From contig NZ_RJVI01000003.1 of assembly GCF_003751635.1 (NCBI RefSeq), forward strand, positions 124,001 to 188,000: 64,000 bases of DNA, written 5' to 3'. Shown in pieces: positions 11,160-54,968 of this stretch. Numbering within the stretch: position 1 is the stretch's first letter; every line of letters begins with the position of its first letter. The position numbers and the translations under genes are program-made. This DNA comes from Inmirania thermothiophila. GTDB taxonomy: Bacteria; Pseudomonadota; Gammaproteobacteria; DSM-100275. The notes beneath the pieces are model-generated. The model saw nothing but the letters and a program-made list of their open reading frames with translations, made no database searches and had not been told where the DNA came from.

Positions 11160-12152
11160 TCACGCGCCGCCTTCTGCGTAGGGCCGGAAGGCGGGCGAGT
11201 CGGCCGTAACGGCGAGGATGGCCTCCACCGCCCCGGCGGGCAGCTCTTCCCGCCAGCCCCAGGCGCTGCGCCGCGGATCCTTGACCACGCTGTAGTAGCC
11301 GCGGTCGTGGCCGCCCGTGCTGGCGGCGACGAAGGCGGCGGTCTGCTCGTGCCAGCCCAGCCCGCAGTGGGCGAGAAGCGCCCGCGCCTCCTCGGCGGGC
11401 GCCTCGCAGAGGCGCTCGTAGACCAGCAGCCGGTGCCCGGCAGCACCCTCCAGATCGTCGAGCGCCTTCTCGTTGGTGAGCACCCACCGCCACGCCAGGC
11501 GCTGCCAGGGCGAGGCCCCGCGGAGGTGCTCCATGCGCAGGCCGCGTCTGCGCGCAGCGTCGGTCTTCAGGAGCATCTCGAAGATGCCCCAGTCCTCGGC
11601 GGCGGTGCCGGCGCCGGTGAAGCGGCCGCCCGCCTCGCCGCGGGCGACGGAGGCCGCGTAGCCGCAGGGGTGGCGCAGGATGTGGACGCTCACCGCGTCG
11701 GGAAGCGCATGCCGCAGGGCCCCGAGACGCCCGAGGGACTCGATGGACTTCCACACCAGCCGCACGCCGGGTGTGTCCGCCCCCCAGGCCGCCCCCGGCA
11801 CCGGCAGATCCAGCCCCGCGCGTGCAGCGGCCTTGGCCGCCACCACGCCGGCGCGCAGCAGCACGCCCCGCCCCGGCCCGAGGTGGCGTTTGGGGAAGAT
11901 GGGCAGCTTGCCGCAGGTGCGCACGTCGCGCATCCGCGGCAGGGCCGCGGCGTAGCGCCGCAGGGCCGGGGCCAGGCCGTCCCACTCGCCGCGCGCGGGG
12001 AAGAGGGGCACGCCCTGGAGGAGGTGGCGCGAGTCCGGCTCGTGCCGGTAGAGGGTCTCGGGATGGCTGTCGAGGATCTTCGCCACCCACGTGGTGCCCG
12101 AGCGCGGCATGCCGAAGAGCAGGATCAGGCCCGCGCCGTCGCGCCGGGTCAC
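11160..12152 (-). CDS. Sulfotransferase family protein
   Basis: A 330-residue protein with the PAPS 5'-phosphosulfate loop LLFGMPRSGTTWVAKIL at the N-terminus and HILRHPCGYAASVARGE (3'-phosphate binding) in the middle. These define the family that moves sulfate from PAPS to a hydroxyl or amino group of a glycan or other acceptor; the acceptor is unknown. The GTG start overlaps the stop of the duplicated asnB 3' fragment in GTGA, so it was originally coupled to a full-length asnB-like gene. It is one of four sulfotransferases in the locus. Confidence 0.85.
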   Translation of the reverse strand: MTRRDGAGLILLFGMPRSGTTWVAKILDSHPETLYRHEPDSRHLLQGVPLFPARGEWDGLAPALRRYAAALPRMRDVRTCGKLPIFPKRHLGPGRGVLLRAGVVAAKAAARAGLDLPVPGAAWGADTPGVRLVWKSIESLGRLGALRHALPDAVSVHILRHPCGYAASVARGEAGGRFTGAGTAAEDWGIFEMLLKTDAARRRGLRMEHLRGASPWQRLAWRWVLTNEKALDDLEGAAGHRLLVYERLCEAPAEEARALLAHCGLGWHEQTAAFVAASTGGHDRGYYSVVKDPRRSAWGWREELPAGAVEAILAVTADSPAFRPYAEGGA

Positions 12153-12650
12153 CGCGGCGCCTCCGCCCGGCGCAGCCACGCCTCCAGCATCACCAGCACC
12201 CAGAGCATCTCGCCGTAGTAGTTGGGGTGGTCGCGGTTGCCGGCGAGGAGCCGCTGGATCCAGGCGGCACGGACGATGCCGCGCCGGCCGAGGGCCTCGA
12301 GGTGGTCGCGGGCCAGCGTGCCGAGGTCGGGATCGGTGTTGAGCCAGTGGCCGAAGGGCAGGCCGAAGCCGTGCTTGGGCTTGGCGAGGACCTCGGGCGG
12401 CAGGAAGCCGGCGAAGGCGTCCTTGTAGAAGGCGCGCAGCCTGCCGCCGGCGAGGTGCAGGCGTGGCGGGATGCGGTGGGCGAGCTCGAGCACAGCGGCG
12501 TCGAGCATGGGGAAGCGGGCGCGCACGCCTGCGGCCTCGGCCATGTGGCGCACCTTGCGCAGGTCGTTGTCGGCGAGCGTGATGCGAAGGTCGAGCGCCA
12601 TCATGCGGTCGACCAGCGCGCCGGCCGAGGCCTCGCGCCAGAGGGTGCGC
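12149..12650 (-). pseudogene. Duplicated 3' fragment of the asparagine-synthase-like gene
   Basis: This encodes about 165 C-terminal residues nearly identical to those of the full-length asnB-like protein at 14071-15825 (TLWREASAGALVDRMMALD to MLEAWLR), then its own ending RAEAPR. It lacks the N-terminal domain and the PP-loop, so it cannot make a working enzyme. Upstream it is joined in frame to a foreign glycosyltransferase-like segment. The end coupled by GTGA to the sulfotransferase suggests that this is the original 3' end of the gene and that the cassette upstream was inserted later. Confidence 0.85.
12171..12650. repeat. 480-bp direct repeat, copy 1
   Basis: This matches 14084-14563 at a constant offset of 1913 bp. 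By eye only two differences were found (12309/14222 and 12647/14560). The identity breaks abruptly at both edges. The copies flank the deacetylase cassette. Confidence 0.92.
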
Positions 12651-12924
12651 TCTGCGCGCAGTGTCAGTGGCGGTACATATCCTGCGATTGCGAGGTGTGT
12701 TCGCAACTTCAGGGCAGACTTGCAATCGATACAGGCGAGGAGCACGGTGTCGTGGGTGGTGGACAGATGGTTTGCCAAGGCGAGGCTTTGGTCAGGTCAA
12801 AGAAACCTCCTCCAGTCACCAGCAGGACTACGGTTTTGCGGCTCTGTGGGACCATTTGGCTGGTAATCGCCTTGAGTCGGTCGTTCATAAAACTATCACA
12901 AAGTGATCTTTTTTGTCTAGCCAT
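12651..12924 (-). pseudogene. Frameshifted N-terminal fragment of a glycosyltransferase-like gene
   Basis: An ATG at 12924 overlaps the TAA of the deacetylase gene (TAATG). The product begins MARQKRSLCDSFMNDRL and reaches KTVVLLVTGGGFFDLTKA. Adding one base near 12783 then restores LALANHLSTTHDTVLLACID and AIAGYVPPLTLRAE. The glycine-rich loop after a hydrophobic strand resembles the start of Alg14/PssD- or MurG-like GT-B proteins, but that is a weak match. The frame runs into the asnB fragment at 12650, so the gene is both frameshifted and cut. Base composition is lower in GC than the surroundings. Confidence 0.55.
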
Positions 12925-14070: not shown

Positions 14071-15825
14071 TCACACGCTCGCCCGCAGCCACGCCTCCAG
14101 CATCACCAGCACCCAGAGCATCTCGCCGTAGTAGTTGGGGTGGTCGCGGTTGCCGGCGAGGAGCCGCTGGATCCAGGCGGCACGGACGATGCCGCGCCGG
14201 CCGAGGGCCTCGAGGTGGTCGTGGGCCAGCGTGCCGAGGTCGGGATCGGTGTTGAGCCAGTGGCCGAAGGGCAGGCCGAAGCCGTGCTTGGGCTTGGCGA
14301 GGACCTCGGGCGGCAGGAAGCCGGCGAAGGCGTCCTTGTAGAAGGCGCGCAGCCTGCCGCCGGCGAGGTGCAGGCGTGGCGGGATGCGGTGGGCGAGCTC
14401 GAGCACAGCGGCGTCGAGCATGGGGAAGCGGGCGCGCACGCCTGCGGCCTCGGCCATGTGGCGCACCTTGCGCAGGTCGTTGTCGGCGAGCGTGATGCGA
14501 AGGTCGAGCGCCATCATGCGGTCGACCAGCGCGCCGGCCGAGGCCTCGCGCCAGAGGGTACGCAGGTGCGCGAGCGGCCGTGCCGCGTCGACGCCGGCGA
14601 GAAATCCGGGCTCGAAGACCTCCGCGGGCGGGAAGCGCAGGAGGAAGTTGTAGCTCTCGAGCCGGTCCGGAAGCGGCACGCGGGCCTGGGCGATGTAGCT
14701 TTGCGCCTTGCGCAGCAGCACGGGGCGCCCGGGCAGGTGCGGCGCGAGCGCCTCCAGGGGCCGGCGCAGCGGCGCCGGCAGGCGCCACCAGCGCTCGAAG
14801 ACGTGCTGCTTGAGGTAGCGGGCGTTGCCGCCGAAGAGCTCGTCGCCGCCGTCGCCTGCGAGGAGCACCGCGACCCCCGCCTCGGCCGCCATGCGGGCGC
14901 AGAACCAGGCCGCGGCCGCCGAGGCGTTACCGAAGGGCTCGTCGTAGACGGCGGCGATGCGGGGGATGGCCTCGGCCACGTCCGCCGGGCGCATGTAGCC
15001 TTCGTGATGGCGCAGGCCGAAGTGGCGCGCGGCGATGCGGGCGTAGTGCATCTCGTCGTAGCCCGGGGCGTCGAAGCCCACCGAGAAGGCGTCCACCGCC
15101 TCGCCGCGAAGGCGCGCGAGCAGCCCCGCCACCGCCGAGCTGTCGGTGCCGCCGGAGAGGAAGGCACCGCAGGGCTCCGCCCCCGCCGCCTGCTGCACCG
15201 CCACCCGCAGCCGCTCGCGCAGCTCCTCGGCCAGCGCCTCGGCGTCGGCCTCCTCCGGCTCCACGTAGTGCGGCCGCCAGTGCTGGATGCGTTCCGTGCG
15301 GCCGTGACCGACGCGCAGGTGCTCGCCGGGCCCGAGCCGGTGCACGCCGCGCCAGGCGCTCCAGGGCGCGGGGATCATGTGGAAGAAGAGGTAGTCGTGC
15401 ACCGCCTGCGGGTCGAGCTCGGGGCTGCGGCCCAGGGCCTCGAGGGCGGCGCGGCCGCCTCCGGCGAGGGCCACCCCCTGCGGGCCCTCGGCCCAGTAGA
15501 CGGGGAAGGTGGCGAAGCGGTCCACGGCGGCCACCGTCTCGTGCCGGACGGTGTCGTGCGCCACGAGGAGCCACGCCCCCTCCAGCGCCTCCAGGAGCGC
15601 CCCACCCTGCTCGCGCCAGAGGCGGGCGAGGATGAGGCCGAGATCGGGATCGCGGAAGTCCTCGCCGTGGCGGATCCGCGGCTCACCGAGCCACAGGATC
15701 CGCACGCCCTCGGCCTCGGCCGTGCCCCCGGGCCAGACCCCGGGCTCCACGGCAAGCTCCGCGGGGGCGCCGTCGGCGGCGGCGAGGAGCGCCCGCCAGG
15801 ACGGGGCCGGCATCCCGCCGCTCAT
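14071..15825 (-). CDS. Asparagine-synthase-like amidotransferase lacking the glutaminase cysteine
   Basis: A 584-residue protein with an N-terminal Ntn-hydrolase-like domain and a C-terminal synthetase domain (PP-loop SGGTDSSAVAGLL, FSVGFDAPGYDEMHYAR, LLAGDGGDELFGGNARYL). The protein starts MSGGMPAP, so the Cys2 nucleophile of true AsnB is missing and glutamine use is doubtful. Such proteins are common in exopolysaccharide/exosortase loci, where they may form amide bonds on glycans. ATG at 15825 overlaps the ligase stop (ATGA). The C-terminus LRASV differs from the LRRAEAPR of the duplicated copy because the cassette junction replaces it. Confidence 0.85.
   Translation of the reverse strand: MSGGMPAPSWRALLAAADGAPAELAVEPGVWPGGTAEAEGVRILWLGEPRIRHGEDFRDPDLGLILARLWREQGGALLEALEGAWLLVAHDTVRHETVAAVDRFATFPVYWAEGPQGVALAGGGRAALEALGRSPELDPQAVHDYLFFHMIPAPWSAWRGVHRLGPGEHLRVGHGRTERIQHWRPHYVEPEEADAEALAEELRERLRVAVQQAAGAEPCGAFLSGGTDSSAVAGLLARLRGEAVDAFSVGFDAPGYDEMHYARIAARHFGLRHHEGYMRPADVAEAIPRIAAVYDEPFGNASAAAAWFCARMAAEAGVAVLLAGDGGDELFGGNARYLKQHVFERWWRLPAPLRRPLEALAPHLPGRPVLLRKAQSYIAQARVPLPDRLESYNFLLRFPPAEVFEPGFLAGVDAARPLAHLRTLWREASAGALVDRMMALDLRITLADNDLRKVRHMAEAAGVRARFPMLDAAVLELAHRIPPRLHLAGGRLRAFYKDAFAGFLPPEVLAKPKHGFGLPFGHWLNTDPDLGTLAHDHLEALGRRGIVRAAWIQRLLAGNRDHPNYYGEMLWVLVMLEAWLRASV
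14084..14563. repeat. 480-bp direct repeat, copy 2
   Basis: Partner of 12171-12650, inside the 3' end of the full-length asnB-like gene. The 1433 bp between the copies (12651-14083) hold the deacetylase gene and the broken glycosyltransferase-like fragment. Confidence 0.92.
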
Positions 15826-17099
15826 GCCGCCGCCCCCTGGGGCCGCGCCGCCTCGGTGGGGCTCGCCGCGGCCTCGGCCTCCACCTCGCGGCGCACGAAC
15901 GCCTTGAGCAGCACGGCGCAGAAGACGAGCTGGTAGAGCAGGTCCCAATAGGTGATCCCGAGGGTGAGCGCGCCCGCCAGGTAGGCGATGAGCGAGGCGC
16001 GCATCATCACGGCGTAGTCGCGCGCCCAGGCGATGCGCTCGTCGCGGCGGGCCTGCCAGGCGATGCGGGTCAGGCTCGCCAGCGTCCCGAAGACCAGCAG
16101 CCCCCACAGCAGCGCCCCGGGGAAGCCGTGCTCGGCCAGGATCTCCACGTAGGCGCTGTGCCAGTCGCGCTTGGTGACGTAGCGCCAGCCGTCGAAGCCC
16201 GCCCCGGTGACCGGGTGCTCCAGCACGTAGCGGATGCCGTCGGTCCAGGCCTCGATGCGGTTCATGGCCGAATTGTCCTGCTGGTATGTGCTAATGGTCT
16301 CCATGCGGGCGAACCACGCCTCGGGCAGGAAGCGCGGCGCCGCAAGCGCCGCCAGGAGCACCGCGACGGTGAGCACCAGCTTGTGGCGGCTGTGCCACCA
16401 CATGACGAGGGAGAGCGCCCCGAGCGCGATGAGCCCTCCGCGCGACCACGAGGAGATCACCGAGGCCACGGCCAGCGGCACCGCCGCCATCGCCCCCCAG
16501 CGCACGAGCCGCCGCCAGCCCGACGTGCCCTTGAGCTCCCGCGCCACCAGCACCAGCAGCGGCACCGCCACCAGGGTCGCGATGCCGAACTCGTTGTTGC
16601 CCCCGTACATGGTGCCCTCGGGCCCCCAGACGCGGTAGTGGAAGCCGCGGGTGATGCCGAAGATCCCGCCCTTGGCGGCGAGCAGCCCGAAGGAGAAGCC
16701 GATGGTGGCGAGCAGCCAGAAAAGCCGCTCGCGGCCCGTGATGAGGATCAGGCTCAGGATGAGGGGGGTGTAGACCTTGCTCACCTCCCAGAGCTTGGGC
16801 CACGCCGCCCAGCCGATGGGGGAGACCGCGGTGGTGACCAGGAACCAGAGCCAGAGGAGGTAGAAGACCGGGATCCGCCAGTCCCGCGGCAGCCCCTGCC
16901 GCTCGCGGGCGCCGATTGCGGCGAGAAACGCCACCGCGAGCAGGATCTGGTAGACGGGGAGCGTCGTGGCGAAGCCCCAGGCGTAGCGGTGCGGGTTGGC
17001 GTAGCCGAAGAAGGCGAGCGCGAGCACCCCGAGCCAGGGGCGGTATACGGTCACAAGGCATGCGCCGGCGAGCAGGGCGAGGACGGCGAGATCACGCAT
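15822..17099 (-). CDS. O-antigen-ligase-like protein, exosortase A-associated type
   Basis: A 425-residue polytopic membrane protein of the Wzy/WaaL superfamily. The N-terminal YANPHRYAWGFATTLPVYQ, KGGIFGITRGFHYRVWGPEGTM in short blocks, YGGNNEFGIATLVAVPLL and the SSWSRGGLIAL motif are characteristic of the putative O-glycosylation ligases linked to exosortase A (TIGR03097 type). The periplasmic loop contains HPVTGAGFDGW. It probably joins or polymerises lipid-linked glycan on the periplasmic side. PEP-CTERM proteins at 52.9-54.7 kb support the exosortase link, but no exosortase gene is in the window. It overlaps the GT2 gene upstream by 8 bp. Confidence 0.85.
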   Translation of the reverse strand: MRDLAVLALLAGACLVTVYRPWLGVLALAFFGYANPHRYAWGFATTLPVYQILLAVAFLAAIGARERQGLPRDWRIPVFYLLWLWFLVTTAVSPIGWAAWPKLWEVSKVYTPLILSLILITGRERLFWLLATIGFSFGLLAAKGGIFGITRGFHYRVWGPEGTMYGGNNEFGIATLVAVPLLVLVARELKGTSGWRRLVRWGAMAAVPLAVASVISSWSRGGLIALGALSLVMWWHSRHKLVLTVAVLLAALAAPRFLPEAWFARMETISTYQQDNSAMNRIEAWTDGIRYVLEHPVTGAGFDGWRYVTKRDWHSAYVEILAEHGFPGALLWGLLVFGTLASLTRIAWQARRDERIAWARDYAVMMRASLIAYLAGALTLGITYWDLLYQLVFCAVLLKAFVRREVEAEAAASPTEAARPQGAAA

Positions 17100-42007: not shown

Positions 42008-45000
42008 TCAGCGGGCCGGGCCGATGCGGCCGACGCCCTCCACCTCGACGCGGTCGCCGTCATCGAACCAGACGCGCAGGGGCCCGGCGGGGCCCGCGAT
42101 CTCGGCCCCGAGGCGCCCGCCCGCCTCCAGGCGGCGGATGCGCACGTCGAGGGGATCGCCGGCGAGCCGCGGCACGAGGGCCACCAGGAAGCGCGCATCG
42201 CGCCCTTCCTCGTCGGCGCTGAGTTCGAGCCGCCAGCGGCCCGGCTCGGGGCGCGGCGGTCGGCGGTGCCGCCCCGCGATGTGCCGCCACAGGGTCCCCT
42301 GCTCGTCGTAGTTGCGCCCGTCGACCCAGAACTCGAACCCGGGGCCGCCGATGGCGTGGATCCGGGCGTTGCCCGGCGCGAGGACCTCGCCCACGAGCAC
42401 GCCGTCGGGCAGCCCGGGCACGGTGGCGGGCGACTGCACGGTGAAGCGGCGGCCCGCGATGGCGGGGCGGGTGCGGGTGTGGAGCAGCCAGCGCTTGCGA
42501 AACGCGGCGCGACTCGCGCGCAGGCGGTCGTGCACCAGGACCACGTCGTTGCCGCGGTCGTAGAGGAAGGTGCGCACGTAGCGCTCGACGCGGCGGGTGC
42601 GGTGGCTGAAGGTGCCCTCGCCGGAGCGGGCGTTGGTGTAGGCCGGGGTGAGATCGGCGACCACCACGGCGAGGCGCGCGTCCTGGTGGCGGGCGAGGAC
42701 CTCGGCGGTGTGGTAGGTCTCGCGGCGCCGCTCCCACTCGGCGCGGTCGAGGGGGGCCGGCTCGACGCCCCAGCCGGAGCCGATGCGGCGCTGACCCCCG
42801 TCGTTGGCGATGGGGCGCGGCCCCTCGCGCGCCGGTGCCGGCACCGTGTCGTCGGGGTCGGTGACCGTGACCACGTTGTGGGCGATGCTCTGGTAGGCGT
42901 AGTTCATGTGGTGGTCGGAGCCGTAGCGGGGGCCGTAGTAGCCGCTGTCGATGGCCAGCGCCCCACCCTTGAAGAGGGTGAAGGCGCCCTGGTCGAGGTG
43001 GCTGTGGGACCAGTAGTTGTCGCCGGCCTTGAAGCTCACCCAGGTCGCCCGCGCGGACCAGTCGCTGCGGGCGATGAGCATGCCGATGCCGTCGAACCAG
43101 CTCGCCCAAGGCAGGCGCGCCGCCGCTCCCGGGTCGCACAGCGCGGGATCCGTGAGCGGCCCCCACGGCCAGGAGGTGGGCTCGACGGTGCGCGGGCAGC
43201 CGCCGAGGCTGTAGGCGGCCGCGTGGCGGTGGCGCAGCGCCAGGGCGAGGCGGTCGGGGCTGTCGCGGTCGAACCAGGCGCCGTCGCCCCAGCGCATGTG
43301 GCTGCCGTCGGGCCGTGTGCGGTAGACGAGGAAGTCGAGGAAGCCGCGCAGGCCCGGGACCGCGGCGAAGAGGTCCTCGCCCGTGGCCGCCCACATGGCC
43401 GGCACCTTGTACACCGCATCGCCGATGCCGATGCCCACGTACTCGGCCCCCTCGTGCCAGCCGCCGTTCACGCCCATGACCTGCCGCCAGGCCGGCACCA
43501 CCACGCGCCAGACCAGGTGATGGGCGAAGGCCATCAGCGGCGCGGCGCGCGGATCCTCGCCGAAGGTGGCGACGCTGCAGGCGACGAGGGCCTGCAGCGG
43601 CGCGTTGTAGAGGATCACGTTGTAGGGCGAGAGGCGGGCGCTGCGGATGAACTCGACGACGTGGCCGCAGCCTGCGAGAAGCTTGTCCAGCAGCGCCCGG
43701 CGCTGCTCCGGGCTCCAGCGGTCGTGGAGCCAGTCGTAGGCCATGGCCAGGGGCAGGACCTGGTCGTGGCCGCGGTCGCGCACCTTGAGGGCGAGCAGGC
43801 GGCGGGCGAGATCCCCGAGGTCGATGCCGCCGGGCTCGGCGTAGGCGGCGAGCACCGCCGCCTCGAGCCGCGTGCGCCGGCTGCCGCCGCGCGCGGCGAG
43901 CGCCCGCTGCGCCTGGAGATAGCCGGGGTTGTCCCTGCGCAGGCGGGCGAGGTCCGCCGCCGTCGGTGCCGGCAGGCGCGGATGCGGCGTGCGGAACTGG
44001 GGCAGCGCCGGCACCGGCAGCGTCGAAGGCGCCGGGTGCGTGGGCAGGGCCCGTTCGTCCACCAGCGGCTCCGGCGGCGCCGCGGCGGTGCGCACGAGCC
44101 CCAGCCCGCGCGCCGCCGGGACCAGGGCGAGGGCGGCGAGCAGCACGGGGACGGCGGCCCACCGGGTGCCCGGGGCAGGGGGCGGGGGTGCGGTCCCGTC
44201 CGCCGCGGGCCGGCGCAGCAGATGCAGCAGCCAGGCCCCGGCCCAGCCCGCGGCGGCGCCGATGAGGACGTTGGTGGGGTCGGGCCGGATGCCGGCGAGG
44301 AAGAGCCGGCCGGTCTCCACCCCGAGGGCGAGGGCGGCGACGGCGGCGGCGCTCGCCGCCGGGCGCACGCGCACCCGCGGCCGCGCCGCGGCCACCAGCA
44401 GGCCCGCGGGGAGGTAGAGCCCGAGGTGGGCGACGAGGCTGCGCACGGCCTCGGCCTCGGTGGTGAAGTAGTGGTAGTAGAAGGGGATCCAGCGCACCGC
44501 GGCGAGGCGGGCGAGGGCCTCGTCCAGGGGCAGCAGGGGGCCGCGCCCCCACCACGCCGCCGCCGGCACCGCCGCGCACCAGGCCAGCGCCGCGAGCCGC
44601 CAGGGCAGGCTGCCGGGCAGCCAGCCGCGGGGGCGGAGGTGCGCGGCCAGCAGCACGCCGGCCAGCGCCCCGAGGGTGCGGGCGAGCGCCGAGGCCCCCT
44701 GGGCCACCCCCGAGGCGACGAGGATCTGGGCCGCCTCGAGGGCGGGGGCGGCCGCGAGCGCCGCCGCCGCGGCCGCGGCGGTGCGGCCCGTGAGCAGGCG
44801 CAGGGCGGCGCCGGCGACGACGGCGGCGGCGGCCTCGGCCGCGAGCCCCGTCGCGCATCCTCCCGCGCAGGCGGGGGCGAGCCACCACCCGGTGAGGTCG
44901 CCGGTGAGCTTCCAGGCGAGCTCGGCGCGCGAGGCGAGCAGGTCGTAGGGAAAGAGGGCGAGGGCGAGGTAGACGAGCAGGAAGGCGGCGGCGAGGGGCC

Positions 45001-45463
45001 TCGGGCCGCCCGGCCCCCGGCCGGCGAGGGCACGCGCCAGCGCGGCCAGGCGGGGGCCGGCGAGCAGCCAGAGGTTGATGCCGAGGGCGGCGCCGATGGC
45101 CTCGGCGTGGATGTCGTTGAGGGAGACCGTGCGGGGGCTGAAGAAGATCTGCACGAACTCGATCCCGGCGGCGAGGGCGAGCAGGGCGAGGAAGAGGCCA
45201 GCGGCGCGGGCGAGGGCGGCGCCCGCGCGCAGCGGCCGGCCCAGGGCGAGGGCGGCGCCGGCGAAGCCTGCAGGGAGGTAGAGGAGGATATTGGCGACCC
45301 AGTCGGCGCGCAAGCCGAGGCCGAGCTGCAGGTGGCGGATGGCGCGGAAGCGGGCGAGGGCCTCCTCCAGCGGCAGGGGCCGCAGCTCGAAGGGCACGAG
45401 GCTGGCGTAGACGATGGCGCCGAGGGCGAGGAGCAGGGCGGCGCCGCGGCGCGGTCGGCTCAT
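42008..45463 (-). CDS. VanZ-VanZ-heparinase II/III fusion protein
   Basis: A 1151-residue protein. Residues 1 to ~450 are membrane-embedded and hold two VanZ-like units, first YASLVPFELRPLPLEEALAR with WVANILLYLPAGF and GIEFVQIFFSPRTVSLNDI, second FYYHYFTTEAEAVRSL with HLGLYLPAGLLVA and GVETGRLFLAGIRPDPTN. From ~470 a heparinase II/III-like lyase follows, with NVILYNAPLQAL, NGGWHEGAEY, NYWSHSHLDQGAFTLFKGG and AIDSGYYG. It may cut an acidic polysaccharide at the outer face of the inner membrane. ATG at 45463. Confidence 0.82.
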   Translation of the reverse strand: MSRPRRGAALLLALGAIVYASLVPFELRPLPLEEALARFRAIRHLQLGLGLRADWVANILLYLPAGFAGAALALGRPLRAGAALARAAGLFLALLALAAGIEFVQIFFSPRTVSLNDIHAEAIGAALGINLWLLAGPRLAALARALAGRGPGGPRPLAAAFLLVYLALALFPYDLLASRAELAWKLTGDLTGWWLAPACAGGCATGLAAEAAAAVVAGAALRLLTGRTAAAAAAALAAAPALEAAQILVASGVAQGASALARTLGALAGVLLAAHLRPRGWLPGSLPWRLAALAWCAAVPAAAWWGRGPLLPLDEALARLAAVRWIPFYYHYFTTEAEAVRSLVAHLGLYLPAGLLVAAARPRVRVRPAASAAAVAALALGVETGRLFLAGIRPDPTNVLIGAAAGWAGAWLLHLLRRPAADGTAPPPPAPGTRWAAVPVLLAALALVPAARGLGLVRTAAAPPEPLVDERALPTHPAPSTLPVPALPQFRTPHPRLPAPTAADLARLRRDNPGYLQAQRALAARGGSRRTRLEAAVLAAYAEPGGIDLGDLARRLLALKVRDRGHDQVLPLAMAYDWLHDRWSPEQRRALLDKLLAGCGHVVEFIRSARLSPYNVILYNAPLQALVACSVATFGEDPRAAPLMAFAHHLVWRVVVPAWRQVMGVNGGWHEGAEYVGIGIGDAVYKVPAMWAATGEDLFAAVPGLRGFLDFLVYRTRPDGSHMRWGDGAWFDRDSPDRLALALRHRHAAAYSLGGCPRTVEPTSWPWGPLTDPALCDPGAAARLPWASWFDGIGMLIARSDWSARATWVSFKAGDNYWSHSHLDQGAFTLFKGGALAIDSGYYGPRYGSDHHMNYAYQSIAHNVVTVTDPDDTVPAPAREGPRPIANDGGQRRIGSGWGVEPAPLDRAEWERRRETYHTAEVLARHQDARLAVVVADLTPAYTNARSGEGTFSHRTRRVERYVRTFLYDRGNDVVLVHDRLRASRAAFRKRWLLHTRTRPAIAGRRFTVQSPATVPGLPDGVLVGEVLAPGNARIHAIGGPGFEFWVDGRNYDEQGTLWRHIAGRHRRPPRPEPGRWRLELSADEEGRDARFLVALVPRLAGDPLDVRIRRLEAGGRLGAEIAGPAGPLRVWFDDGDRVEVEGVGRIGPAR

Positions 45464-45566: not shown

Positions 45567-46673
45567 TCAGGCGCGCCGCGGGACCAGGGCCTTGCGGGCG
45601 AGGTGGGGCAGGAGCAGCCGCGGCGGCATGCGCAGCCAGTGGCCGCGCAGGTAGACGGCGCGCCGGGCGAGCCCGCTCCAGGCGTCGTCGCAGGCGGCAT
45701 GGGGCGGGCGCAGGGCCCGCTCCCAGACCGCGTCCATGATGCGCCCGAGGGGAGGCGGCGGCAGGTGCGCGGCGACGGCGGCGAGGGTGCCGGCGGGCAC
45801 CGCCGTGCCGAAGCGGCGCCGGCACCACCGCAGGGCGTAGGCCAGCGGCCGCTCGAGGCCGAAGGCGGCGGCGCGCGCGGCGAGGGTGTCCCAGAAGCCC
45901 GGCTCCCCGCCGAAGGCGCCGAGGAGCAGGTGCAGGTCCCAGAGGTCGCGCAGGGCGTGGTCGCACTCGCCGTCGTCGAAGAAGCGGTGGGCGGCGGCGT
46001 GCAGCACCATGTCCGCCGGCGCGAGCACGCGCAGGCCGGGGCGGCCCGGCACCGCCACCGCGGCCTCGAGGAGCGCCGCCCCCTGCGGGCGGGCGCGCGA
46101 GGTGCGGGGCAGGATGTTGTGGTGGAGGTCGATGCTGCTGCCGCGGTGGACGTGGCGCAGGGGCGGGATCTCGTGCATCCAGCGGCGGTAGTAGCGCTGG
46201 TCGTAGGGGTCGTGCTTGACCGGGGCCCATCCGGCCAGCTTGAGGGCGAGCTCGGCTTCGGCGAGGCGCGTCTCGGGCACCAGGAGGTCGATGTCGCCCA
46301 TGAGCCGTCCCTCGGCGCAGGGCAGGCCCGCGGCGAGGTAGGCCGCCCCCTTGAGCAGCACGGGCTCGATGCCGCGCCGGCCGAGGAGGGTGGCGAGCCG
46401 GTGCAGCTCGTCGTCGGCGGCGCGGGCCTGGGCGGCGGCGAAGCGCCGCGCCGCCTCGAGGTGGCGGCGCGCCCGCGCCGGCACGCGCTCGACGAGTCCG
46501 GCCGCCGCCACGCGCTCGGCGAGGGTGGCGAGGAGCCCCGCCGCGCGCGCCGCAGGCAGCAGCGCGTCCCAGTCGGCGAGGCGCAGCCCGGCGAGGGCGG
46601 CCGGCTCCAGCAGCCCCGCGGCGAGACGGGCGTGGACGGGCTCAGGCGCCCGCCGCGGCACGGTCGCGGGCAT
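45567..46673 (-). CDS. Nucleotidyltransferase-family protein (HPr-kinase-related/PqqD system)
   Basis: A 368-residue protein of the NTP_transf_5-like family. GIEPVLLKGAAYLAAGLP and GRLMGDIDLLVPETRLAEA (G-x5-D-x-D pattern) form the nucleotidyltransferase core, followed by IDLHHNILPRTSR and APADMVLHAAAHRFFD. It overlaps the HPr-kinase-like gene by 32 bp. In exosortase-bearing bacteria such proteins accompany an HprK-related kinase and a PqqD-like protein; the substrate is not known. Confidence 0.82.
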   Translation of the reverse strand: MPATVPRRAPEPVHARLAAGLLEPAALAGLRLADWDALLPAARAAGLLATLAERVAAAGLVERVPARARRHLEAARRFAAAQARAADDELHRLATLLGRRGIEPVLLKGAAYLAAGLPCAEGRLMGDIDLLVPETRLAEAELALKLAGWAPVKHDPYDQRYYRRWMHEIPPLRHVHRGSSIDLHHNILPRTSRARPQGAALLEAAVAVPGRPGLRVLAPADMVLHAAAHRFFDDGECDHALRDLWDLHLLLGAFGGEPGFWDTLAARAAAFGLERPLAYALRWCRRRFGTAVPAGTLAAVAAHLPPPPLGRIMDAVWERALRPPHAACDDAWSGLARRAVYLRGHWLRMPPRLLLPHLARKALVPRRA

Positions 46674-47574
46674 GGCGGGTGAGCCCGTCCACCAGCGCCG
46701 CCGCCTGCGCGAGGTCGTCGAAGCGGAGCCGGTAGGCGGGCACGGAGGCGGCGATGTCGGCGAGGCGCTCGAAGGCGTCGGGGCCGACGGCGGTGTAGTT
46801 GACGCACTGGCGGACCAGGGCCATGAGGGCCCGGCCCGGGCCGACGCCCCCCACCGCGGGGGGGCTTCCCGGGGTCACCTCGGGCAGGATCAGCCAGGCG
46901 GCGCGGGCGGGTTCGCGGGCGCGGGCGACGCTGCCGGGGGGCGGCCGCAGATGCGCCACCCAGCCCTTGCCGTCGGTGGCCACGGGGTCGCTGAGGACGG
47001 CCCCGGGGGCGAGGCCGGCGACGAGCTCGATGGCGCGGTCCTTGAGGCTCACCGGGCGCGGCAGCGGCTGGATGCGCCCGTCGCGCGGGTCGAGCAGGGC
47101 GAGCTCGTCCGAGAGCAGCCGCCAGCCGCGGGTGAGCAGCGCGGCGCACAGCGTGCTCTTGCCGGCGCCGGAGTCGCCCGCGAGCAGCAGGGCGCGGTCG
47201 CCGTCGGCCACCACCGCGGCGTGGACCACGATCCACCAGTGGGCCTGGCTGTAGACGCACCAGTTGAGGCCCCACTCCAGCAGCGGGCAGGCCTGGCCCC
47301 GCGGCAGCGGGCGGAAGGGCTCGTGCCCGTCCACCACCAGCCGTGCCTGCGGGCGCAGCCGCCGGCGCAGGCCGCGCCCGGGCAGCAGTTCGACGCTCCA
47401 GTCCGCGAAGGCGTCGGGCCCGCTCAGGCGGTGGTCGGGATAGAGGCGGTGCAGGTGTGCGGCGATCTCGGGGAAGGGGGTGCGCAGGCGGAAGGCGAGC
47501 GGGCCCACCTCCAGCACGAGCCCGCGGGCGAGGCGCCGCGCCAGCGCCCGCGGGGGGCAGTCGGCCACCCTCAC
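46642..47574 (-). CDS. HPr kinase-related protein (HprK-related kinase A type)
   Basis: A 310-residue protein. The P-loop LLLAGDSGAGKSTLCAALL and LLSDELALLDPRDGRI (acidic Walker-B-like) match the C-terminal kinase domain of HPr kinase, but the protein lacks the rest of HprK and is found with PqqD-like proteins (HPr-rel-A system). It might phosphorylate a protein or small substrate. GTG at 47574 overlaps the PqqD-like stop in GTGA, and the 3' end overlaps the nucleotidyltransferase gene. Confidence 0.85.
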   Translation of the reverse strand: MRVADCPPRALARRLARGLVLEVGPLAFRLRTPFPEIAAHLHRLYPDHRLSGPDAFADWSVELLPGRGLRRRLRPQARLVVDGHEPFRPLPRGQACPLLEWGLNWCVYSQAHWWIVVHAAVVADGDRALLLAGDSGAGKSTLCAALLTRGWRLLSDELALLDPRDGRIQPLPRPVSLKDRAIELVAGLAPGAVLSDPVATDGKGWVAHLRPPPGSVARAREPARAAWLILPEVTPGSPPAVGGVGPGRALMALVRQCVNYTAVGPDAFERLADIAASVPAYRLRFDDLAQAAALVDGLTRHARDRAAAGA

Positions 47575-47861
47575 GCCCCCGCCTCCTCGACCAGATCGAG
47601 CCGGCGCAGCGCCCGCAGCGCATCGTGCACGGCGGCCTCGCGCAGGACCGGGCAGCGGTCCTCCGGGGCGAGGCGCGCGGCGATGGCGGCGGTGTCGAGG
47701 GGCGCGCCGCCAGCGAGGAGTTCGAGGATGGCCGCGGCGGCGGGCGCGACCAGGTGGGTGGCCCCGGTGGCCTCGTCCAGCAGCGCCACCTCGCCGCCGA
47801 GGGCGCGCCGGCGAAGCCGCAGCCCGCGGCGCAGCCGCCACACCGTTGCCGTCGCCGTCAT
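47571..47861 (-). CDS. PqqD-like peptide chaperone (HPr-rel-A system)
   Basis: A 96-residue protein. LRRRALGGEVALLDEATGATHLVAPAAAAIL (given here as its key blocks EVALLDEATG and THLVAPAAAAIL) and VHDALRALRRLDLVEEAG give the PqqD fold, a small winged-helix domain that binds leader peptides in peptide-modifying systems. It is coupled to the HPr-kinase-like gene (GTGA). ATG at 47861. Confidence 0.82.
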   Translation of the reverse strand: MTATATVWRLRRGLRLRRRALGGEVALLDEATGATHLVAPAAAAILELLAGGAPLDTAAIAARLAPEDRCPVLREAAVHDALRALRRLDLVEEAGA

Positions 47862-47890
47862 CGCGCGCCCCCGCGGTGCCCCCCCTGCCG

Positions 47891-48448
47891 TCAGGAGACC
47901 TCCAGCGCCTCGTAGAAAGCCTTGAGGTCCTCCGCGGTGCCGGTCCAGTTGCGGTAGATGTCGACGATGTCGCCGGGCGCGTAGCCGAAGCTTCCGGGGT
48001 AGAAGCGCTGGGCGTTGAGCACCGCGGCGACGGCGTGGAAGCCCAGCCTCTTGGGATCGTCCCCGCCCGTGAGCTGCAGCACCTGGAGCAGCGTGCGGTC
48101 GCCGAAGTCCACCGTCCCCGTGTCGGGGAAGGCGCGGACGGGGAAGCCGTGGCTCGGGTCGTGGAAGCGGAGCTCGGTACGGTAGGTGAGGCCGGTGCCG
48201 TGGTCCCACTCGCTGGTGTGGTTCTTCCAGTAGCCCGGAGAGAGCCCCTCGCAGGTGACGGTGGGCGCCGAGAGGTTGCCGGAGAGCTGGGCCGAGAGGG
48301 TGCAGCGGTTGCCCCACGCCGGGCGCGCGGCCACCGAGAGCAGCACCGGGGCGGCGAGCCCGGCGCCGGTCAGGCGCCGTCGCGTGCGGTCGGGCGCCGG
48401 GGCCTCGCCGCTGCGCGTCCCTGGCCTGGTGGGCTGTTCCTGATCCAT
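47891..48448 (-). CDS. Tat-exported protein with GYWKNH motif
   Basis: A 185-residue protein. TRRRLTGAGLAAPVLLSVAA is a twin-arginine-type signal ending near RPAWG. The mature part has two early Cys residues, then the motif LSPGYWKNHTSEW and a region with GDRTLLQVLQLTGGDD, VAAVLNAQRFYPG and DIVDIYRNW. GYWKNH-type motifs occur in many surface proteins of unknown role. ATG at 48448 follows GAGGAGG. It is the first gene of an operon with PqqD, HPr-kinase-like and nucleotidyltransferase genes and has a sigma-54 type promoter, so it may be the substrate of that system (inference). Confidence 0.78.
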   Translation of the reverse strand: MDQEQPTRPGTRSGEAPAPDRTRRRLTGAGLAAPVLLSVAARPAWGNRCTLSAQLSGNLSAPTVTCEGLSPGYWKNHTSEWDHGTGLTYRTELRFHDPSHGFPVRAFPDTGTVDFGDRTLLQVLQLTGGDDPKRLGFHAVAAVLNAQRFYPGSFGYAPGDIVDIYRNWTGTAEDLKAFYEALEVS

Positions 48449-48562
48449 GGGCCGGACCTCCTCGACCGGTGCCTTGCGGCGGGATCGATGATCAGCTTAG
48501 TTGCTCGATCGTATCGGTGCAAACGGTTCGCAAGCGCCCCGCTCGCGTCTGACACGGCTCGA

Positions 48563-48578
48563 TGCAATTTTCGCGCCG
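48563..48578 (-). promoter_or_regulatory. Candidate sigma-54 promoter for the Tat-protein/PqqD operon
   Basis: On the minus strand CGGCGC-GAAAA-TTGCA, with GG at 48577-48576 and GC at 48565-48564, ten bases apart. A transcript would start near 48552, about 100 bases before the ATG. The upstream dyad at 48641-48661 is 64 bp from the -24 element. Confidence 0.7.
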
Positions 48579-48640
48579 CACGAACCGATGCGTGGGAAAT
48601 CAACGGTATGCGCGTCCCCTGCGGGGGCGCAGGGGACGCC

Positions 48641-48661
48641 GGTGTAAAGAAATCCGACACC
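48641..48661 (-). promoter_or_regulatory. Upstream activator-type dyad (PEP-CTERM regulon type)
   Basis: Plus strand GGTGTAAAGAAATCCGACAC plus C; on the minus strand it reads TGTCGGATTTCTTTACA. The outer five bases on each side are exact inverted repeats (GGTGT...ACACC). It matches the dyads at 51452, 54789 and 54948. Confidence 0.75.
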
Positions 48662-51451: not shown

Positions 51452-51470
51452 CGTCGGCATGCTTTACACA
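51452..51470 (+). promoter_or_regulatory. Upstream activator-type dyad (PEP-CTERM regulon type)
   Basis: CGTCGGCATGCTTTACACA, which shares TCGG-x-AT-x-CTTTACA with the dyad at 54948. It lies 63 bp before the -24 element of the next promoter, in the same orientation as in the PEP-CTERM case. Confidence 0.65.
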
Positions 51471-51531
51471 TCGCCGGCCGACCGCATGGGCCAGGGATGC
51501 AACGCTTTGAAATCGAAAGAGCCGATGAGTT

Positions 51532-51547
51532 CGGCACGGCGTGTGCA
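51532..51547 (+). promoter_or_regulatory. Candidate sigma-54 promoter for the small-protein/protease operon
   Basis: CGGCAC-GGCGT-GTGCA, GG at 51533-51534 and GC at 51545-51546 with ten bases between. Its position was predicted from the 63-bp spacing at the PEP-CTERM promoter and fits exactly. Confidence 0.65.
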
Positions 51548-51582
51548 TGGCCTTCCTCGCAGGGAACGCGGAGGGATGTCGC

Positions 51583-51765
51583 ATGCTCTGGGTGGATGCC
51601 ACGCAGGTGCGGATCATGGGCTCGCTGGGCTATCTGCCGCTGCCCGCGCTCTGGTTCGTGCCCGACCCCTCGGGGCGGGCGGTCAACGGCTACCTGGTCC
51701 CGCCCGCGGAGCGCCCGCGCGTGATCGCGGAGCTGCGCCGGCTCGGGGTCTACTTCCGCGCCTGA
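51583..51765 (+). CDS. Small protein of unknown function (60 residues)
   Basis: A 60-residue protein, MLWVDATQVRIMGSLGYLPL then PALWFVPDPSGRAVNGYLVP and a basic end. ATG at 51583 follows GGAGGG with a seven-base spacer and lies after the predicted sigma-54 start site. An upstream GTG (51541) would lie inside the promoter. It overlaps the protease gene in TGATG. The hydrophobic patches are too short for a clear membrane segment. Confidence 0.6.
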   Translation: MLWVDATQVRIMGSLGYLPLPALWFVPDPSGRAVNGYLVPPAERPRVIAELRRLGVYFRA

Positions 51766-52529
51766 TGCGGGCGGCCGGGACGCTGCTTGCCGCGGCGCTG
51801 TCCGCCGCCGCCTCCCCGGCCGCGGAGCTGCCGGACACCGTGGAGCGGGTGCGTACCGCGGTGGTGGGGGTGGGGACCTTCCTGCCCACGCGCCAGCCGC
51901 CGGCGAGCTTCCGCGGCACCGGCTTCGCGGTGGCCGACGGCCGCCACGTCCTCACCAACGCCCACGTCGTGGCCGGGCCCGTGGACGTGGAGAAGGGCGA
52001 GGCGCTGGCGGTCTTCGTCGGGCGCGGCCCCTCGGGGCGGGCCCTGCGCGTGCGCAAGGTGGCCGAGGACGCTCTGCACGACCTCGCCCTGCTGCGCATC
52101 GAGGAGGGCACGACCCGCCTGCCGGCGCTCACCCTGGGCGGCTCGCGTCCGGTGCGCGAGGGGGCGGAGTACGCCTTCACGGGCTTCCCCATCGGCACCA
52201 TCCTCGGCCTCTACCCGGCGACCCACCGCGGCATCGTCTCGGCGGTGACCCCGGTGGTGATCCCGGCCGGGCGCGCGCGCGAGCTCGACCCCGTCCTCAT
52301 CCGCCGCCTCCAGCGGCCCTACGAGGTCTACCAGCTCGACGCCACCGCCTACCCCGGCAACAGCGGCAGCCCCCTCTACGAGCCCGACACCGGCCGGGTG
52401 GTGGGCATCGTCAACAAGGTCTTCGTCCAGGGGACGAAGGAGGCGGCGCTGGAGCGGCCGAGCGGGATCAGCTACGCGGTGCCCATCGAGCACGCCGTCG
52501 CGCTGCTGCGCCGCGCGGGGCTGCGCTGA
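51765..52529 (+). CDS. Secreted trypsin-like serine protease
   Basis: A 254-residue protein. A signal peptide (GTLLAAALSAAASPAAE) precedes a chymotrypsin-fold domain: FRGTGFAVADGRHVLTNAHV (catalytic His), LHDLALLRIEEG (Asp) and YPGNSGSPLYEPDTGRVVGI (Ser). No PDZ domain is present, so it is not a full Deg protease. The ATG overlaps the small gene's stop. A sigma-54 type promoter shared with PEP-CTERM genes suggests a role at the cell surface or in the matrix. Confidence 0.85.
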   Translation: MRAAGTLLAAALSAAASPAAELPDTVERVRTAVVGVGTFLPTRQPPASFRGTGFAVADGRHVLTNAHVVAGPVDVEKGEALAVFVGRGPSGRALRVRKVAEDALHDLALLRIEEGTTRLPALTLGGSRPVREGAEYAFTGFPIGTILGLYPATHRGIVSAVTPVVIPAGRARELDPVLIRRLQRPYEVYQLDATAYPGNSGSPLYEPDTGRVVGIVNKVFVQGTKEAALERPSGISYAVPIEHAVALLRRAGLR

Positions 52530-54788: not shown

Positions 54789-54809
54789 GGTGTAAAAAAA
54801 TCTGACACC
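54789..54809 (-). promoter_or_regulatory. Upstream activator-type dyad of the PEP-CTERM operon
   Basis: On the minus strand TGTCAGATTTTTTTACA with GG and CC outside (exact GGTGT...ACACC ends). Position relative to the -24/-12 promoter is as expected for an enhancer-binding protein. Confidence 0.8.
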
Positions 54810-54947
54810 GGCGGCGGGTGGGGTCCGGGTGTGCGCCGCCGTGCGCCTTGCGACGGGTCCGGTGGCGCGCCGGCCGGGCTCGCGCTGGTCGCAGGGGCGG
54901 TCGGCGGGGACCGGGGCGGGCGTCCGCCGGGGGGGGGCGGCGCCGTG

Positions 54948-54968
54948 GGTGTCGGAATTCTTTACAGG
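54948..54968 (+). promoter_or_regulatory. Fourth activator-type dyad, no matching promoter seen
   Basis: GGTGTCGGAATTCTTTACAG on the plus strand, inverted relative to the copy at 54789. It overlaps the stop codon of the VanZ gene. No GG-N10-GC promoter was seen at 63 bp on either side. The 138 bp between the two dyads hold no recognisable gene. Confidence 0.6.

Follow-up and report, generated by a model that had tools for sequence, protein, structure and literature searches.

What does an HPr-rel-A gene set act on, and under what control is it expressed? A four-gene operon of this kind lies in the window analyzed here, a 64,000-nucleotide stretch of the Inmirania thermothiophila genome (contig NZ_RJVI01000003.1, positions 124,001 to 188,000 of the forward strand; coordinates below are those of the window). 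In NCBIfam, HPr-rel-A comprises a kinase family (TIGR04352) and a PqqD family (TIGR04353) whose names give no substrate, regulon, or mechanism. Among the papers searched, none names HPr-rel-A or GYWKNH, a motif of the first protein of the operon, and none links PEP-CTERM with HPr kinase or PqqD. Our analysis suggests that the operon probably encodes a substrate, a protein with a twin-arginine translocation (Tat) leader, together with the machine that modifies it. The best reading, by analogy, is that the system would be a Gram-negative, Tat-exported relative of kinase-modified ribosomally synthesized and post-translationally modified peptides (RiPPs), namely the Bsf/paeninodin lasso peptides and the linear LPPs of Bacillota, in which the signal peptide doubles as the enzymes' leader.

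The genes follow one another on the minus strand in the order Tat protein, PqqD, HprK_rel_A, NTP_transf_5:

47891-48448, minus strand: predicted secreted protein with a Tat leader (185 amino acids) and a GYWKNH-type domain, the proposed substrate (open reading frame and leader profile)
47571-47861, minus strand: PqqD-type RiPP recognition element (RRE; PqqD_rel_X, TIGR04353; family, sequence-profile, and fold matches)
46642-47574, minus strand: HprK-related kinase A (HprK_rel_A, TIGR04352; family match)
45567-46673, minus strand: nucleotidyltransferase-fold enzyme NTP_transf_5 (PF14907; family match), by context comparable to PsmN/BsfN/LppN

The sequence-only reading had described four adjacent genes of which the last three overlap, and this is the arrangement that we find at 45567-48448, with overlaps of 4 nt (PqqD/HprK_rel_A) and 32 nt (HprK_rel_A/NTP_transf_5). 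The kinase scores 310 bits against TIGR04352 (curated cut-off 200) and the PqqD protein 42.3 bits against TIGR04353 (curated cut-off 35); adjacent and both above their cut-offs, they make the locus a member of the HPr-rel-A system. The last gene matches PF14907 with an E-value of 1e-58. The Tat protein matched no Pfam or NCBIfam family, and no paralogue of it was found in its own genome.

HprK_rel_A, called by its curated cut-off, occurs in 39 of the 369 genomes sampled from the class (Gammaproteobacteria in GTDB). With a profile seeded by the Tat protein of the window, we examined its own locus and the 38 others of the class. A protein with a Tat-type leader precedes PqqD in 38 of these 39 loci (37 of the 38 others), and the single locus without one is interrupted by a contig end. 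A second collection of 80 named loci (Massilia, Thiobacillus, Sulfuricella, Nitrotoga, and others), which has at least two loci in common with the class sample, holds the leader protein in 79 loci, directly upstream in 72 and elsewhere in the locus in 7, three of which hold two copies; the nucleotidyltransferase is likewise encoded in 79 of the 80. The Tat protein is the most constant neighbor of the kinase/PqqD pair, and the pairing, for which co-occurrence had been named as the check, withstood it. Among fetched loci of a phylum-wide sample, the leader protein was seen in 14 of 20 (three of them from this class). Second substrate copies also occur, as a paralogue away from the operon (L094:7908-9110; L-numbers denote individual loci) and as pairs downstream of the kinase (L159, L161, and L189).

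Two segments of the Tat protein are conserved:

48311-48397, minus strand: twin-arginine leader (residues 18-46), which is conserved throughout the system and is proposed to dock PqqD (leader alignment)
48269-48304, minus strand: residues 49-60, CTLSAQLSGNLS, with a conserved C-x-x-S...S-G-N-x-S, proposed modification site (mature-part alignment)

The N-terminus is a Tat-type signal: a 22-residue n-region is followed by RRR, then by a hydrophobic stretch and ARPAWG. The twin arginine is invariant among 34 aligned leaders and TatC is present in the genome; with twin arginine, hydrophobic stretch, cleavage region, and translocase in place, export by Tat is predicted. Substrates of the system fall into two types that have a common leader and different mature parts. 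In type 1, to which the window protein belongs, the leader is followed by C-x-x-S-G-x-x-S-G-N-x-S and then a GYWK-like domain, and the first cysteine, the first two serines, the second cysteine, one tryptophan, and one asparagine are invariant in the aligned mature set. We propose Ser52 or Ser56 as the first choice of acceptor. Type 2 joins the leader of type 1 to another mature part, close to whose end C-x-x-S-[FIL] is often found.

When the mature type-1 profile was searched against the 369 genomes, matches that include the CxxS/SGNxS start were found in 28 genomes, all of which encode HprK_rel_A, versus 0 of 330 negatives (Fisher p ~2e-33); since these very loci supplied the leader and mature profiles, absence elsewhere is the sole informative result, and Fisher values here and below overstate independence because the sampled genomes are related. 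Four matches without the C-x-x-S start are GYWK domains of other proteins. Outside HprK_rel_A genomes, the leader profile gave matches at E<1e-7 in just two genomes, each of which encodes a related HprK-like kinase. The Tat-leader protein had earlier been characterized by its GYWKNH motif. The protein itself proved constant and the motif did not: unrelated secreted proteins can have the domain too (for example, one of 479 amino acids), other substrates differ in their mature part, and about one quarter of class-sample substrates lack the domain. The alignments point instead to the Tat-type leader and the CxxS..SGNxS segment as the defining elements, which track the system. Outside the class (L224-L236 and L240), the leader is kept and C-x-x-S-[FIL], mostly SCWxSF, lies near the C terminus; most such genomes lack PrsR, the regulator discussed below.

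The dimensions of these proteins bear on whether the Tat protein is itself a true RiPP precursor, from which a short modified N-terminal piece would be excised and set free as a signaling or antimicrobial peptide while the GYWKNH domain serves as carrier. Related systems do have short peptides with a like leader, and one HprK_rel_A substrate has only 74-77 amino acids (L068), but most substrates retain a conserved, folded-looking domain of 130-190 amino acids and the four-gene unit contains no dedicated protease or exporter. We consider this reading improbable.

Against PDB sequences, the PqqD family profile matched TbiB1 best (1.6e-6) and then TfuB1, both lasso-peptide proteins solved with bound leaders. 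The AlphaFold model of the PqqD protein (pLDDT 92) found its best fold match in the TbiB1-leader complex (probability 1.00). In sequence and predicted fold, the protein resembles the leader-binding B1 proteins of lasso peptides. Tat-signal-binding chaperones are established for cofactor proteins. PqqD might be such a proofreading chaperone, with the kinase and nucleotidyltransferase making a non-phosphate group, for example a small-molecule or glycan addition on the folded domain, and the absence of a strict YxxP motif in HprK_rel_A substrates would suit this role. Two observations make it unlikely: the nearest PqqD relatives are lasso leader-binding RREs, and related sets of RRE, HprK-like kinase, and nucleotidyltransferase phosphorylate serines of a leader-bearing peptide (PMC10368454, PMC13381572).

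Both enzymes keep candidate catalytic residues: a histidine, GxGKS/T, and DE are invariant in aligned kinases, as is KG...R...DxD in aligned nucleotidyltransferases. The nucleotidyltransferase had no match among PDB sequences. The resemblance of HprK_rel_A to HPr kinase is confined to the P-loop segment and falls below the Pfam cut-off, in contrast to the full-length similarity that would mark an HPr kinase/phosphorylase. That distant similarity is what favors an alternative in which HprK_rel_A acts as a regulatory kinase on an HPr-like protein, governs sugar use or exopolysaccharide output, and has its neighbors only incidentally. With only the P-loop region matching, and with the conserved unit containing the leader protein left unexplained, we find this idea hardly credible.

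Precedents for the favored reading, modification of the Tat protein by its neighbors, come from known RiPP systems. In Bradymonas, the PqqD-type BsfB1 speeds phosphorylation of core Ser3 by BsfK, and the cluster contains a nucleotidyltransferase gene (PMC10368454); in pseudomycoidin, PsmN is required for the hexose on phospho-Ser (PMC9266682). Like these Bsf and paeninodin/pseudomycoidin clusters (BsfK/B1/N, PadeK, PsmK/PsmN), the operon combines a PqqD-type B1 protein, an HprK-like kinase, and a nucleotidyltransferase with a leader-bearing precursor, but it lacks a B2 protease, an adjacent lasso cyclase, and a lasso-type core; a search next to the Tat-protein gene found no adjacent B2 protease or lasso macrolactam cyclase. 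Elsewhere in the window, two Asn-synthase-like proteins (14071-16107 and 12149-12778) have their best matches in XrtA or N-acetylglutaminylglutamine amidotransferases, with scores under the curated cut-offs; one is an amidotransferase and the other a fragment matching only its C-terminal part.

The LPPs of Bacillota are linear peptides polyphosphorylated on Ser3 (LppK), and their clusters, with an RRE, an HprK-like kinase, and an NTP transferase, often lie near capsule loci (Popov et al., 2026; PMC13381572). The operon has the core of this system (LppA/K/B/S/D/N): a discrete RRE, an HprK-like kinase, an NTP transferase, and a leader-bearing precursor within the 35-200 amino acid range, with a conserved serine shortly after the leader, no macrolactam cyclase in the unit, and polysaccharide loci nearby. 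LPP clusters belong to Bacillota and bring their own SpI-like peptidase and MsbA-like exporter, whereas the four-gene operon has no dedicated peptidase or exporter and differs in its Tat-signal leader, domain-sized substrate, and RpoN/PEP-CTERM-type promoter. Leaders of the system are of Tat type and do not match the LPP leader consensus YxxPxVLxHQxIxFETxxS.

A second kinase lineage, separate from HprK_rel_A, is accompanied by short Tat proteins. In some genomes of the class, kinases that score below the cut-off accompany 63-153 amino acid proteins with S-R-R-x-F...Y-x-A-P leaders (loci L085-L093, e.g. L086:8964-9200, L087:7613-7843, L088:5194-5451, and L092:4555-4746). All nine of these short Tat peptides carry YxxPx[VIL] inside the Tat leader and a serine 16 or 17 residues after the proline; for BsfA this distance is 16 and for the LPP consensus 15. 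PqqD is present in five and the nucleotidyltransferase in three of the six loci that contain a kinase; some of the peptides are encoded apart from the kinase, whose gene then lies on another contig of the same genome. The lasso YxxP rule, rejected as universal, holds in the nine short peptides and only partly in HprK_rel_A substrates. Because the latter lose the tyrosine and keep the proline only partly, we do not claim identical leader recognition in the two groups.

The region upstream of the operon contains two elements:

48643-48659, minus strand: upstream activator site, PrsR-type motif 1 of the PEP-CTERM regulon, TGTCGGATTTCTTTACA (motif match; Haft et al., 2006)
48563-48578, minus strand: sigma-54 promoter element CGGCGCGAAAATTGCA, -24 GG / -12 GC, 114 nt 5' of the start codon

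The sequence-only reading had assigned the operon a sigma-54 type promoter of the PEP-CTERM regulon. That promoter is present, but the conspicuous 17-mer first taken for the sigma-54 site is the PrsR-type activator site, and the sigma-54 site lies 64 nt downstream of it. Proteobacterial PEP-CTERM genes are preceded by activator motif 1, then on average 63 nt, then the sigma-54 motif (Haft et al., 2006; PMC1569441), and RpoN dependence has been shown for a PEP-CTERM gene in another system (PMC9850573). A scan of the 2.6-Mb genome that tolerates one mismatch finds the 17-mer at 13 places and its reversed control at none. Genes whose products have a visible PEP-CTERM tail follow seven of the 13 sites, and at five of these seven a sigma-54 site comes 62-64 nt further on. 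The same genome encodes PrsR (724.7 bits) and the exosortase XrtA (365.7 bits). The motif pair, its spacing, and the presence of PrsR and XrtA thus place the operon, by sequence, in the PEP-CTERM regulon (PrsR/RpoN). It shares activator site, sigma-54 site, and spacing with the known PEP-CTERM/exosortase regulon (PrsK/PrsR, RpoN; PMC1569441) but differs in that its first gene encodes a Tat protein without a PEP-CTERM tail. An Rfam scan of the promoter and leader region gave no match.

Within the class, this tie to the exosortase regulon is consistent: PrsR is encoded in all 39 HprK_rel_A genomes versus 69 of 330 others (Fisher p ~5e-24), and the prsR gene lies within 8 kb of the HprK_rel_A locus in four. 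Of 114 loci, 69 have an activator site no more than 450 bp upstream, where about one is expected and the reversed control gave 0. Universality, in contrast, had to be given up, since only 8 of 35 HprK_rel_A genomes from other classes of the phylum encode PrsR; no activator site was found at fetched loci from those classes. The regulon tie is a lineage feature. As the pair persists outside the class in genomes without PrsR, the enzyme-substrate pairing is more general than its regulation, yet it is less complete there. The same persistence counts against a reading in which the enzymes act generally on PEP-CTERM proteins or exopolysaccharide, with the Tat protein belonging to the matrix and its regulon but escaping modification. 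A common regulon would fit that reading; the constant partner, however, is the Tat protein and not a PEP-CTERM protein, and we judge it very unlikely. Activator-to-sigma-54 gaps cluster at 63-64, 74-78, 85-87, and 96-97; helical phasing of these gaps is suggestive only, the test being driven by one cluster of related loci.

Two other places in the window carry similar sites. At 51452-52529, the gene for a trypsin-like peptidase without a PEP-CTERM tail is preceded by an activator-like site, CGTCGGCATGCTTTACA, with a sigma-54-like site 63 nt on, and is a possible regulon member. At 54791-54966, two activator-like sites on opposite strands lie 5' of a PEP-CTERM gene, the plus-strand one without a clear sigma-54 site.

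Together with the RiPP precedents, these features suggest a route by which the Tat protein may be modified. In the cytoplasm, the PqqD protein would bind the conserved Tat leader, which we consider very probable, and present the protein to HprK-related kinase A. The kinase would then phosphorylate at least one serine just past the leader, in C-x-x-S...S-G-N-x-S, a step that we favor by a small margin. More tentatively, the NTP_transf_5 enzyme might extend or cap the phosphate, much as PsmN apparently adds hexose in pseudomycoidin. Tat, which takes folded cargo and would suit a substrate altered in the cytoplasm, would export the modified protein, and signal peptidase would cut off the leader. 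The protein could finally enter the extracellular matrix of the co-regulated exopolysaccharide/PEP-CTERM program, a role for which we see the chances as even. We lean slightly towards a further proposal, in which the Tat signal is also a RiPP-type leader that PqqD reads so that, in the cytoplasm and at the expense of ATP, a domain-sized matrix protein is tagged with phosphate or a phospho-sugar; release from PqqD would license export, a check on modification ahead of secretion, and a like logic would operate in the second kinase lineage with its short peptides.

Several observations weigh against modification of the Tat protein by this route. HprK_rel_A substrates do not conserve the lasso YxxP tyrosine and keep the proline only in part, with serine, glycine, or alanine in its place in many betaproteobacterial members; the part of the leader that PqqD recognizes may therefore be a different one. 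Glutamate replaces the second aspartate of the HKDD motif of lasso and LPP kinases in HprK_rel_A, where the histidine, the GxGKS/T lysine, and the first aspartate are invariant. Several serines and threonines are conserved, so the acceptor is not unique, and type-2 substrates have their common CxxS near the C terminus. The model of the Tat protein (pLDDT only 75) has no recognizable fold and no PDB match. Finally, 6 of the 20 phylum-sample loci (L227, L232, L233, and L237-L239), some at contig ends, have no detected leader protein near the kinase.

To the named family, these results add a proposed substrate, regulon, and mechanism: HPr-rel-A, a widespread but unexplained gene set, gains a candidate substrate, a candidate acceptor site, and a regulon. 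If the favored reading is correct, modification by HprK, PqqD, and nucleotidyltransferase would no longer be confined to lasso peptides and the peptides of Bacillota but would include domain-sized proteins exported by Gram-negative matrix builders, and a Tat signal could hold enzyme-docking information besides export information.

Directly downstream of the operon, the window encodes a 1151-amino acid protein (42008-45463) in which VanZ and heparinase II/III-like domains are fused, and homologues of this fusion protein are present in 8 fetched loci.

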